Of a stretch of 64,000 bases of DNA, positions 30,733 to 33,098 are shown one piece after another. A model generated the notes under the pieces. It did no database searches. It saw only the letters and a program-made list of their open reading frames with translations, and had not been told where the DNA came from. Source of the stretch: Alphaproteobacteria bacterium (GTDB taxonomy: Bacteria > Pseudomonadota > Alphaproteobacteria > Caulobacterales > Parvularculaceae); the NCBI GenBank assembly GCA_016125425.1, contig WGLT01000007.1:1-64000 (forward strand), read 5' to 3'. The position numbers were made by a program, and so were the translations under genes. The stretch's first letter is position 1. Each line of letters starts with the position of its first letter.

Positions 30733-31557
30733 TCAATCCAGCAAGTATCCGAGCGCGCGCAATGCAGGTCCTGCCGCTGCAATCACCTCGCTCTGTTGCC
30801 GCTGCGTCAGATCACGCCGCCATCGACCGACGGCGGCTTCCGATATAGGCGCCGACAAGCGCGACCGTTCTTCTTTTTCCATGCCCGCAAGATCGAGCGC
30901 GCGCTCTTGAAACCTCAGCGGCTGATCGGTCTTTTCCACCGCAAGGAAGTCCGAAAGCGTACTGAGCGACTTGCGAGGATCGCGAACCAGATCTTCGTAC
31001 TTCACCCGGCGGATTCTGGCCGAGCCTATAGCCTGTTCCGCCCTGAGACCGATCTCCGCAAGCCCCGCCCAGTACCGAGCGGCCGCGCCGGCGTCTTGGC
31101 AGTAATCAAACACCTTACCCGTGCGGGGGTCCTTCCAGCGCCGCTCGAGCAGAGACGCGACAACATCCCGACCATCTCGCACGCAATGGATGAATTGCGC
31201 ATCCGGAAAAATTGAGGCGAGGTCTGCGAAAACGAGCACATTCATCGCTGATTTTTCCCCCGGCCGCAGCTTCCCGTCCCGCGCGGCCCGCGCGCCAAGA
31301 ATTGAACGAATGGCCGCCGCGAAATTCGCCGAAACGCGTTCCGGCGACAAATTCAAATGATCGCGATGGAGCTCCCCCAAAGTGAGCGCAAAATCTCTCT
31401 GAGCCAACGCGAGGCTTAGAACTCCTGTGTCGGGACAGATCGAAATCGTCGGATGCGCATCGAGAATCAAACGCAACAACGTTAGTCCCGAACGCGGCGC
31501 GCCGCCGATGAAAATCAAAGGCGCGACTTCACCAATTTTGGTCATGTGCGTAGCCAA
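30733..31557 (-). CDS. Sulfotransferase family protein (copy 1)
   Basis: A 274-residue PAPS-dependent sulfotransferase (Sulfotransfer_3 type, like tyrosylprotein sulfotransferases). The 5'-phosphosulfate loop is FIGGAPRSGLTLLR near residue 16; the usual SGTT is SGLT here. The 3'-phosphate motif is CVRDGRDVVASLL near 125, and RRVKYEDLVRDP follows. The C-terminal GRWRRDL is shared with the neighbouring copy 2, so the two are paralogues. It starts inside the end of copy 2 (28-base overlap from ATG 31557; ATG 31545 is also possible). The acceptor is unknown. Confidence 0.87.
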   Translation of the reverse strand: MATHMTKIGEVAPLIFIGGAPRSGLTLLRLILDAHPTISICPDTGVLSLALAQRDFALTLGELHRDHLNLSPERVSANFAAAIRSILGARAARDGKLRPGEKSAMNVLVFADLASIFPDAQFIHCVRDGRDVVASLLERRWKDPRTGKVFDYCQDAGAAARYWAGLAEIGLRAEQAIGSARIRRVKYEDLVRDPRKSLSTLSDFLAVEKTDQPLRFQERALDLAGMEKEERSRLSAPISEAAVGRWRRDLTQRQQSEVIAAAGPALRALGYLLD

Positions 31558-32332
31558 GTTTGATCAGCAGATCTCCCGCAACAGATTTGACCGCGGTCTT
31601 GTCAGCAGTCGAGAGATCGCGCCGCCAACGCCCCCGCGCGCTATGATTCAGCCCGCGCGCCACGCTTTGCGCGCTTGATTCATTCATTCCGACAAAGATC
31701 GTTTCATTCTTCTCGAATGAGAGCACTTCTGGTCGCCATGGTTCGCCAAGAAAATCGAATAGCTTTCGCAGTTCCGATTCGGGAGACTCGACCAGGTCTT
31801 CATATCGAATTTCGAAGAACCGTCCGCCAACCGCGGCGACTTTCCGGGCTTCCTCTATGTGGCTCACCCACGCTCGCGCCGCACATTCGGCATGCGTCGT
31901 AATAGCCATGCGTTCGCCCGTACGCGCTTCAAACCAATCCATTTTCATTAAAGATGAAACCACGTCGCGCCCATCTCGAATGATCGAAACAAAAAACGCT
32001 GACGGAAACAAACGCGCGAGCTCAGAAAAATGCAAAGCATTGGCTGGCGTCTTTTCCGCAATGCGCGCTTTTCCTCGCGCTTGTCGATAAGACTCAAGAA
32101 AGGAACTGATGAGGTTGGCGAAAACTGAGTTCAAGGCTTCCTCTCCCAGACCGCAATGCGCGGACAAGGTATCGCCCATTAACTGCCGCGTATTTGCGGA
32201 AAGCGCGGCCAGGGAAGGAATAATCCTGAATTCGGGTCCGCAAGCGATATTCGGGTGGCTGTCGAGTATGACGCGCAAAAGAGTGGTCCCCGATCGGGGG
32301 GCGCCGCCGACAAAAATTGGCGCATCAATCAC
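31529..32332 (-). CDS. Sulfotransferase family protein (copy 2)
   Basis: A 267-residue sulfotransferase with a canonical 5'-phosphosulfate loop (FVGGAPRSGTTLLR near residue 7), EKTPANALHF near 95, IIRDGRDVVSSLM near 118 and IRYEDLVESP near 180. It ends with GRWRRDL as in copy 1. No signal peptide or membrane segment is seen, so it acts in the cytosol, where PAPS is available. It follows the oxygenase gene by 13 bases and overlaps copy 1. The DNA is clearly poorer in GC than the flanking genes, which suggests acquisition by transfer. Confidence 0.88.
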   Translation of the reverse strand: MIDAPIFVGGAPRSGTTLLRVILDSHPNIACGPEFRIIPSLAALSANTRQLMGDTLSAHCGLGEEALNSVFANLISSFLESYRQARGKARIAEKTPANALHFSELARLFPSAFFVSIIRDGRDVVSSLMKMDWFEARTGERMAITTHAECAARAWVSHIEEARKVAAVGGRFFEIRYEDLVESPESELRKLFDFLGEPWRPEVLSFEKNETIFVGMNESSAQSVARGLNHSARGRWRRDLSTADKTAVKSVAGDLLIKLGYAHDQNW

Positions 32333-32345
32333 GCTTCAACCTTAC

Positions 32346-33098
32346 TTATGGTCTTTTCGACGCCATCGGGTCGACGCCAGCACGGAACCATCCCGTGATC
32401 GAATAACGCGAACCGCCTGCAAAGGGCGCGACCGCGGTCACGGAGTGCCGTTGCGGCACAAGAAACACATTCAACGCATTAAAGCGAGGAGAGATCGCGC
32501 CGTCGATTTCTCCGTCATCATTGACGAAAAGCGTCAAGCCGCCCCAATCGACTCGCCACTTCGGCGATAAATTCAACACAAAGGCGGCGCGTCTATCTTT
32601 GCCTTCAACGCCGTCATTGTGTTCGTTGAGAAAGTGCCCAGCCCTGTATTTCGTCGCCTGGGCATCGGCGAATCCGATGTCGCTTGCGCCAGTCAACTCG
32701 CGGGCAAACGCAATCATCGCTTCGCTATTTACCAGCTCAAACACCTCACGCAGAAGGCCACGCGCCGAATCACCGCGATGGTAGATGTCATAAATTGGAA
32801 TATTCTCGTAGAGATACGCGAACCCATGCTCGGCTTGCCCATACACACGAGATAAGAACGCCTCTCGCTCCTGAGGGGATTGTTTCTCCATCGCGGCCGC
32901 GTCGAGATCCAGATGACGGCCGTCAAGGTCAGTGACCAGATTCCAACGACGATCCATTTCAAGCCAGGTCAGAATGCGCTTGGCGCTCTGCTGTTCCAGA
33001 ATGTCGCAGACTTGTACGCGGCCAATACTTTGAAGCGTTTGACGATAAGGCGCTATGTCAAGACTGGCATTTAAACGTAAAGCTGTTGGTTCGCTCAT
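32346..33098 (-). CDS. 2-oxoglutarate/Fe(II) oxygenase, OGFOD1/Tpa1-like
   Basis: A 250-residue oxygenase. The iron ligands appear as His-x-Asp in NEHNDG near residue 150 and a distal His in PQRHSVTAV near 210, and the 2-oxoglutarate arginine is in SRYSITGWF near 228. The sequence RRAAFVLNLSPKW, then WGGLTLF, with the SITGWF ending, follows the pattern of the Ofd1/Tpa1/OGFOD1 prolyl hydroxylases that modify ribosomal protein uS12 in eukaryotes. It is the first gene of a three-gene unit with two sulfotransferases. Hydroxylation of the same target before sulfation is an inference from the order. Confidence 0.85.
   Translation of the reverse strand: MSEPTALRLNASLDIAPYRQTLQSIGRVQVCDILEQQSAKRILTWLEMDRRWNLVTDLDGRHLDLDAAAMEKQSPQEREAFLSRVYGQAEHGFAYLYENIPIYDIYHRGDSARGLLREVFELVNSEAMIAFARELTGASDIGFADAQATKYRAGHFLNEHNDGVEGKDRRAAFVLNLSPKWRVDWGGLTLFVNDDGEIDGAISPRFNALNVFLVPQRHSVTAVAPFAGGSRYSITGWFRAGVDPMASKRP

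Follow-up and report, generated by a model that had tools for sequence, protein, structure and literature searches.

Organization of the locus

Three open reading frames in the window (the whole 64,000-nucleotide stretch analyzed here) form a single minus-strand unit, in the order OX, ST2 and ST1, with the following features:

32346..33098, minus strand: OX (OX-A), 250 aa, ATG start; 2-oxoglutarate (2OG)/Fe(II) oxygenase of the OGFOD1/PHD prolyl-hydroxylase type, assigned from Pfam, profile and residues
31529..32332, minus strand: ST2, 267 aa, GTG start; TPST-type PAPS sulfotransferase, assigned from Pfam, profile and residue table
30733..31557 (TTG start, 274 aa) or 30733..31545 (ATG start, 270 aa), minus strand: ST1, diverged TPST-type paralog, assigned from Pfam, profile and residue table
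31529..31545, minus strand: overlap of the ST2 stop and ST1 start regions, from reading the sequence

The first-pass annotation had described this unit, and both its existence at these coordinates and the gap of 13 bases between the oxygenase and ST2 genes are confirmed. It had also reported a 28-base overlap between the sulfotransferase genes; the overlap is real, but its length is 29 bases if ST1 starts at the TTG (31557) and 17 bases if it starts at the ATG (31545), the likelier of the two. This ATG precedes the TGA of ST2 by 14 bases, and the overlapping frames probably couple translation of the two genes. All nine ST2/ST1 junctions examined across genomes have overlapping frames.

OX matches PF13661 (5.7e-20) and PF13640 in a single stretch at residues 147–239. 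ST2 and ST1, which share 38% identity across 261 residues, both match PF13469 (1.4e-40 and 5.5e-28, respectively).

The oxygenase

The iron and 2OG residues noted in the first pass (H160-x-D162...H218 and R231, respectively) are intact in OX and are accompanied by OGFOD1/PHD-type substrate residues, namely the prolyl-hydroxylase arginine (R169) and the leucine of P3H enzymes (L157). All of these are invariant in the 24 aligned rows of OX-A and a second, paralogous oxygenase, OX-B. In OGFOD1, the prolyl-hydroxylase arginine is Arg162, and Leu152 replaces the tyrosine of P4H enzymes (PMC4396695). The OX profile, when compared with solved structures, matched OGFOD1 best (3.7e-9), followed by PPHD, Tpa1 and PHD2. 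Its sequence marks OX as a 2OG/Fe(II) oxygenase that is intact and has the substrate residues of prolyl hydroxylases.

OX thus resembles OGFOD1/Tpa1 and the bacterial PPHD, which acts on EF-Tu, in its metal and 2OG residues, prolyl-hydroxylase arginine and P3H leucine, as well as in its top profile matches. However, it differs from all of them in being accessory, duplicated (OX-A and OX-B) and genetically tied to sulfotransferases. The two tandem DSBH domains of OGFOD1/Tpa1 were not found in OX, a single chain with one Pfam-matched stretch; its 250 residues leave no room for both OGFOD1 domains, which span residues 24–238 (NTD) and 270–542 (CTD) (PMC4396695). The first pass had proposed that the acceptor could be a cell protein, in the way that OGFOD1 acts on uS12 (PMC4396695), or a lipid or small molecule. 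We consider it unlikely that OX is an ortholog of the uS12 hydroxylase, given the domain count and the presence of the OX-A clade in only 9 of 62 family genomes. OX scored 37.2 bits against the YhhC cyclophane-peptide oxygenase model (NF041706), below its 150-bit cut-off.

The sulfotransferases

Profiles of both sulfotransferases were compared with solved structures. ST2 matched TPST1/2 best, over the whole length (7e-40), with CurM as the next family (4.5e-17); the corresponding values for ST1 were 2.1e-34 (TPST) and 4.3e-20 (CurM). With single sequences, the TPST scores were 1.2e-26 for ST2 and 2.2e-22 for ST1, versus 5.7e-6 for the Synechocystis pSYSM sulfotransferase (whose best match was CurM, 1.2e-12), 3e-10 for a TPR-containing sulfotransferase of G076, and 6.8e-13 for a Sinorhizobium plasmid sulfotransferase. 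Thus, by sequence comparison, TPST is the closest solved relative of both ST1 and ST2, and much less close to the three bacterial controls. Against the NoeE nodulation sulfotransferase model (NF052394), the scores were 50.4 and 19.8 bits, below its 500-bit cut-off. Structure prediction from two-row alignments gave pLDDT values of 37 and 47, and the active sites were thus compared by sequence.

The PAPS loops reported in the first pass are present in both enzymes, which share the 5'-PSB and 3'-PB motifs with TPST1 and TPST2 (5WRI, 3AP1). Residues R13, T16, E34, R36, K94 and S220 of ST2 correspond to R78, T81, E99, R101, K158 and S285 of TPST2, where the numbering of T81 and R101 was obtained by counting. 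The catalytic residues of TPST (R78, E99, K158 and S285; PMC5562738) are matched in all ten ST2 rows; by sequence, ST2 is a PAPS sulfotransferase that has the catalytic residues of TPST complete. ST2 lacks the membrane-anchor part of TPST1/TPST2 (267 aa, match from residue 6), and the cassette differs further in having two overlapping paralogous genes.

ST1 had been described as a copy with one altered loop residue (SGLT for SGTT). That substitution is real, with leucine at this position in 9/9 ST1 orthologs (SGLT in eight, SGLA in one), but it is one of three fixed active-site changes, Thr81 to Leu, Glu99 to Asp and Arg101 to Gly, that are shared by all nine and mark an old subfamily. The equivalents of R78 and K158 are retained in every ortholog and that of S285 in eight; the full R78/E99/K158/S285 set is absent from ST1, where E99 is always Asp. 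We therefore class ST1 as a diverged paralog rather than a TPST. Its dN/dS values in three pairs range from 0.10 to 0.41, with dS high to near saturation. Sequence comparison shows ST1 as an anciently diverged, separately conserved subfamily under purifying selection. A degenerate pseudogene was considered and rejected in view of the dN/dS below 0.5 in all three pairs and the differences fixed in 9/9 orthologs.

The window copy of ST1 carries extra losses beyond the fixed subfamily changes: the S285 equivalent is missing, as is a cysteine three residues ahead of the catalytic acid.

Distribution and co-occurrence

The first pass had suggested a search for the same three-gene unit in other genomes, and had noted that the genes might not occur together elsewhere. 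The trio is adjacent in the window genome (G000) and in four others (G002, G005, G017 and G036), so this objection does not apply. Among 62 genomes of the family, sulfotransferase matches occur in seven and OX-A in nine, including all seven; OX-B is found in the same nine. Two of these genomes, G006 and G481, have OX-A but, at the cut-offs applied, no sulfotransferase pair. In another family (f5), three genomes contain the sulfotransferase pair and, unlinked to it, OX-A-type and OX-B-type genes. All ten sulfotransferase-bearing genomes of the two families therefore have an OX-A-type gene, adjacent in five and unlinked in five, and co-occurrence backs the proposed functional link between hydroxylase and sulfotransferases even where the genes are unlinked.

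These counts come with qualifications. The 9/9/7 co-occurrences are non-independent events, and the four g1 genomes without the genes form one clade; the Fisher values (3.5e-6 and 8e-9) take no account of relatedness and carry no weight here. The f5 OX-A scores (261–277 bits) are about level with those of a class genome, G198 (261.5 and 244.7 bits), which has no sulfotransferase match, and the assignment of the f5 genes rests on a tree that places them with the G005 sequence (A_G005; 97/94) and does not resolve the OX-A group overall.

In the three f5 genomes (G068, G076 and G080), OX-B adjoins a TPR-type sulfotransferase. These loci resemble the cassette in pairing the same oxygenase family with a Sulfotransfer_3 enzyme; they differ in that TPR repeats accompany the sulfotransferase domain, unlike ST1/ST2, and in that two of the three also contain a TPR-2OG oxygenase. 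No sulfotransferase adjoins OX-B in the fetched stretches of the family's nine genomes, the nearest being ~8 kb away (G005). Elsewhere, relatives in the OX family adjoin tryptophan halogenases (L055, L058), and the OX-B of G017 adjoins a PrnB family protein (L040).

Genomic neighbourhood and base composition

The window cassette is flanked by genes for pyruvate kinase, Lrp, a Glu/Leu dehydrogenase, a thiolase and an acyl-CoA dehydrogenase. Within the unit itself, nothing was recognised as a gene for a substrate or an exporter, or as a leader peptide. An APS kinase, which would contribute to PAPS supply, is encoded in the window genome (G000:C24). In six fetched same-genus stretches, the Lrp–LeuDH block is conserved, and the thiolase and acyl-CoA dehydrogenase are present in some; neither the cassette nor pyk was matched in them (the G008 stretch ends 1.9 kb past Lrp). 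The neighbourhood has changed, and these stretches yielded no clean empty insertion site.

Carriage by phages or plasmids was also considered and found no support in searches of viral contigs with OX-A and ST2, of phage records with OX and of plasmid records with the sulfotransferases. No OX-A or ST2 relatives were confirmed in viral contigs; three phage records contain a distant OX relative, and 60 plasmid records contain distant sulfotransferase relatives, each below 60% identity among the matches listed.

The sulfotransferase pair of G467 adjoins a GT-Wzy-Wzx-TolC-ABC-HlyD block, and the OX-A of G006 adjoins the HlyD end of an orthologous block. Of 40 genomes, 29 carry an ortholog of the block's ABC gene (at least 70% identity), whether or not they have the module; the window genome has none (best match 34%). 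The module therefore does not need this T1SS/polysaccharide block, which we reject as an obligate partner; the two adjacencies remain a lead.

The AT-richness noted in the first pass holds for the window genome, where the cassette has a GC content of 56.1% versus 62.3 ± 3.0% in 141 equal-length stretches drawn from 354,641 bases of that genome (five at or below the cassette), and in each of three gene sets the GC3 values of OX, ST2 and ST1 rank among the lowest 11%. It does not extend to the unit in general. Where the trio is adjacent in the four other genomes, the GC fractions of the unit and its fetched flanks are 0.702 and 0.657 (G002), 0.544 and 0.550 (G036), 0.572 and 0.558 (G017), and 0.651 and 0.641 (G005), i.e. 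the unit is not AT-richer than its flanks, or by 0.6 points at most. AT-richness is thus a local fact of the window genome rather than a mark of the cassette.

Functional implications

The cassette, present in a minority of related alphaproteobacteria, suggests a hydroxylation-and-sulfation pathway that is as yet uncharacterised. Our preferred reading, to which we assign a probability of roughly 40%, is an accessory module that most likely modifies a protein or peptide, with ST1 serving ST2 as a specialised or non-catalytic partner. ST2 would use PAPS to sulfate a hydroxyl, probably that of a tyrosine. ST1 could be a heterodimer partner that aids acceptor binding, or a second sulfotransferase with another acceptor; in TPST dimers, each subunit completes the active site of the other. 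OX may hydroxylate the same target, perhaps at a proline close by, either ahead of sulfation on the new or a nearby hydroxyl, as the first pass had proposed, or after it, and the target would be encoded outside the cassette. In plants, prolyl hydroxylation and tyrosine sulfation occur on the same peptide hormones (PMC9372746). It is improbable that the cassette is a bacterial counterpart of this maturation, in which a P3H-type OX and an obligate catalytic/pseudo-catalytic ST2/ST1 heterodimer would produce hydroxyproline and sulfotyrosine on a bacterial protein or peptide.

A serious rival to the protein or peptide reading, somewhat less likely, is that the pathway sulfates a surface glycan or a lipid: ST2/ST1 would act on an exopolysaccharide, LPS or lipid, with OX hydroxylating an acyl chain or a sugar-linked group on that molecule. 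The Wzx/Wzy/glycosyltransferase neighbours of the pair in G467 point to glycans, and the position of OX-A in G006 agrees with this, although the block's ABC gene occurs irrespective of the module and is missing from the window genome. The NoeE model matches ST2 at 1.4e-13, far under its cut-off. The xss cluster of Synechocystis pSYSM makes a sulfated EPS, synechan, with two sulfotransferases (PMC8205485). A PAPS sulfotransferase of pSYSM, located among glycosyltransferase genes and, we infer, belonging to the xss cluster, aligns with 98% of ST2 at 31% identity; however, it is much less TPST-like than ST2/ST1, and OX has the residues of a protein prolyl hydroxylase. It is doubtful that OX and the sulfotransferases instead tailor a secondary metabolite or xenobiotic. 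The halogenase and PrnB neighbours of OX relatives, and the rank of CurM, a natural-product sulfotransferase domain, as second-best solved relative of ST2/ST1, are consistent with such a role, but TPST is a far nearer relative than CurM or the SULT folds, and no scaffold-making genes were recognised by eye beside the five adjacent cassettes.

It is similarly doubtful that OX is an independent protein prolyl hydroxylase, with EF-Tu or a ribosomal protein as its target, for example, and that its place beside the sulfotransferase pair reflects no shared pathway. The unlinked arrangement in half of the sulfotransferase-bearing genomes, the two genomes with OX-A alone, and the action of its closest solved relative, OGFOD1, on uS12 (PMC4396695) would fit this explanation. 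Against it stand the OX-A-type gene in every sulfotransferase-bearing genome, the five adjacent arrangements, and the different sulfotransferase beside OX-B in f5; moreover, a ribosomal modifier is hardly expected in only 9 of 62 genomes.

Among other known systems, RaxST of the Xanthomonas raxX-raxSTAB locus has been modelled on TPST2 and has sparse, horizontally spread homologs (PMC6637879); of the TPST-like enzymes of bacteria, it is the one for which the literature consulted names a substrate. By description rather than by sequence, the cassette enzymes are similar, stand-alone TPST-like enzymes with sparse homologs. Unlike the rax locus, the cassette combines paired paralogs with an oxygenase, and no raxX, raxA or raxB was recognised beside the window copy among flanking genes above very-short-peptide size. 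A search of titles and opening lines of abstracts, with most subscription journals outside its coverage, returned no description of such an oxygenase-sulfotransferase trio, and a phrase search of similar coverage returned no paper on a sulfotransferase that naturally forms a heterodimer in which one subunit is specialised or non-catalytic. The overlapping ST2/ST1 pair, if confirmed, would be such a heterodimer. The tie to OX, together with OX-B beside a different sulfotransferase in f5, makes bacterial hydroxylation plus sulfation testable with few genes.

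Organization of the cassette

The first-pass annotation placed three genes of one direction at 30733–33098. Open frames were confirmed there, all on the minus strand:

32346–33098, minus strand: OX, a 2OG-Fe(II) oxygenase by Pfam
31529–32332, minus strand: ST2, a Sulfotransfer_3 protein by Pfam
30733–31557, or to 31545 from a likelier ATG, minus strand: ST1, a Sulfotransfer_3 protein by Pfam

The described 13-base gap between OX and ST2, and the overlap of the ST2 and ST1 frames that follows, are both present in the sequence. ST1 and ST2 share 38% identity. The cassette is flanked by pyruvate kinase on one side and, on the other, by an Lrp/AsnC regulator, a Glu/Leu-type dehydrogenase, a thiolase and an acyl-CoA dehydrogenase. 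An APS kinase domain is encoded within a 649-aa frame of the same genome, so PAPS can be made there. The AT-richness attributed to this DNA holds in the window (56.1% GC, compared to 62.3 ± 3.0% in 141 stretches of the genome), but not in four other genomes with the same trio, where its GC content is about equal to or higher than that of the flanks.

Recurrence of the module

The trio is a real, recurrent, accessory module. Looking for the same unit elsewhere, as the first-pass annotation had proposed, recovered an adjacent trio in those four genomes, two from the same genus as the window genome (G002 and G005) and two from another genus of the family (G017 and G036). One flank is common to G017 and G036; the immediate neighbours differ in the other trio genomes.

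The family includes Parvularcula sp. NAT21, which NCBI taxonomy assigns to the alphaproteobacterial Parvularculaceae. Among 62 family genomes, seven have sulfotransferase matches to the ST1 profile (E≤1e-40); in one of them, G479, the match is a single gene at the end of a contig. The cassette-type oxygenase, OX-A (>350 bits with the OX profile), was found in nine, which include all seven, and a second paralog, OX-B (193–225 bits), is present in the same nine, with one extra OX-B fragment in G481. In G006 and G481, which carry OX-A and OX-B, the ST pair was not found at the cut-offs used. G012, G018, G020 and G026 have one OX relative each, forming a separate group in the wider tree; G012 is not among the rows of the OX tree described below.

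A tandem ST pair occurs in five of 60 genomes sampled from the order (the window genome, G017, and G068, G076 and G080 of another family, f5). No OX adjoins the pair in the f5 genomes; each has two OX genes elsewhere, one grouping with OX-A of G005 (97/94) and the other with OX-B of G006 (98/91). OX-B forms a clade (99/95), while the OX-A rows as a whole form an open fork rather than a single clade. The f5 OX-A genes score 261–277 bits, about level with G198 (261.5 bits), a class genome without the sulfotransferases. At least two of 385 class genomes besides the window's have one ST match each (G085 and G136, E≤1e-30); at most six candidates per genome were scored among the matches listed, so misses are possible. 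No OX match was found in G136.

An OX-A-type gene is present in 10/10 ST-bearing genomes found in the family and f5. The genes are unlinked in five of these, so adjacency alone does not explain the co-occurrence. Four genomes of group g1 that lack the genes fall into a single clade in a tree built from two proteins; genome counts are therefore not independent events, and we claim no probability for the co-occurrence.

Oxygenase

The best solved relatives of the OX profile are, in order, OGFOD1, PPHD, Tpa1 and PHD2. OGFOD1 has a second domain, whereas OX is too short to hold one. H160-D162-H218 and R231 are kept in all 24 OX-A and OX-B rows, as are R169, the arginine common to prolyl hydroxylases, and L157, the leucine of prolyl-3-hydroxylases that is a tyrosine in P4Hs. 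The residue assignments follow PMC4396695, according to which the leucine by itself does not decide between C-3 and C-4.

Sulfotransferase pair

Searched against solved structures, both sulfotransferases of the cassette match protein-tyrosine sulfotransferases (TPSTs) across their whole length. This similarity is far weaker in three sulfotransferases used as controls (one from pSYSM of Synechocystis, a TPR-repeat sulfotransferase and a Sinorhizobium plasmid enzyme). T81 and R101 of TPST have roles in the active site. The catalytic residues, as given in a passage of PMC5562738, are R78, E99, K158 and S285. With positions matched through HMMER alignments of ST2 and ST1 and by counting, all six are kept in 10/10 ST2 rows. 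ST1 has T81→L, E99→D and R101→G in 9/9 rows; R78 and K158 are kept in all nine, and S285 in eight, missing only in the window copy.

One branch (100/100) separates nine ST1 from ten ST2 plus the single G136 gene; in the wider tree ST1 is a clade (98/94) and ST2 is not resolved. On either side of this branch, the G467 sequence groups with those of f5 (100/99), so the two genes have probably moved together between families. The ST2 and ST1 frames overlap at all nine junctions read (the window genome G000, and G002, G005, G017, G036, G467, G068, G076 and G080). By its dN/dS values (0.10, 0.17 and 0.41, at dS of 0.9 to 2.7), ST1 is under purifying selection.

Possible function

Most likely, OX and ST2/ST1 would act on the same protein or peptide, ST2 being the putative catalytic, TPST-type enzyme. 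TPST-like sulfation is known; the variant here would combine it with a prolyl hydroxylase-type enzyme and a diverged sulfotransferase partner. The active site of TPSTs is completed by dimerization, and heterodimers of TPST1 and TPST2 have been reported (PMC5562738), which makes a coupled pair of one catalytic and one diverged enzyme a natural hypothesis. ST1 could equally have an acceptor of its own. Hydroxyproline and sulfotyrosine occur together on plant sulfopeptide hormones (PMC9372746); that the module installs the same two marks is the boldest reading and has a low probability.

Two alternatives, sulfation of a glycan and secretion of a sulfated protein by a type I system, are kept alive by a neighbouring gene block. 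OX-A in G006 adjoins this T1SS/polysaccharide block (HlyD-ABC-TolC-Wzx-Wzy-GT), and the ST pair in G467 adjoins the opposite end of the orthologous block. The block is common (29/40 genomes at ≥70% identity) and absent from the window genome, which led us to reject it as an obligate partner.

Other genomic contexts

Near the block in G467, an RTX-repeat protein (L140:9355–11553, contig C66; 14 matched stretches of PF00353) lies ∼7.5 kb away. A conserved 249-aa protein is found beside OX-A or one gene off in G467, G479 and G481 (73–91% identical to the copy in G467, for which neither Pfam nor NCBIfam gives a match):

L127:4643–5392, conserved 249-aa protein
L128:6741–7490, conserved 249-aa protein
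L129:8120–8866, conserved 249-aa protein

It is accompanied by a small conserved protein that looks secreted by eye.

OX-B adjoins a TPR-repeat sulfotransferase (692–713 aa) in all three f5 genomes (L134, G068:C6; L135, G076:C2; L136, G080:C1). This gene is followed in G076 and G080 by a TPR protein with a C-terminal 2OG oxygenase domain (PF13759), and in G068 a TonB-dependent receptor lies ∼2 kb from it. No sulfotransferase adjoins OX-B in the fetched stretches of the family's own nine genomes; one match lies ∼8 kb off in G005. The gene beside OX-B in G017 (L040:8486–9661, contig C27) is a strong match to the PrnB family, a pyrrolnitrin-pathway type enzyme (PF08933, 6.4e-174), and clusters with one gene of L035 (G036:C8) among the matches listed.

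OX relatives directly precede tryptophan-halogenase genes (PF04820) in L055:119–3297 (in tandem) and L058:8066–10568. Another lies on a 6.8 kb faecal scaffold labelled 'Bacteriophage sp.' (L090:5001–5699, MT838130.1; 38% identity over 93% of the query). This scaffold may be bacterial DNA, since its OX relative groups with the cellular sequence G405a (100/100).
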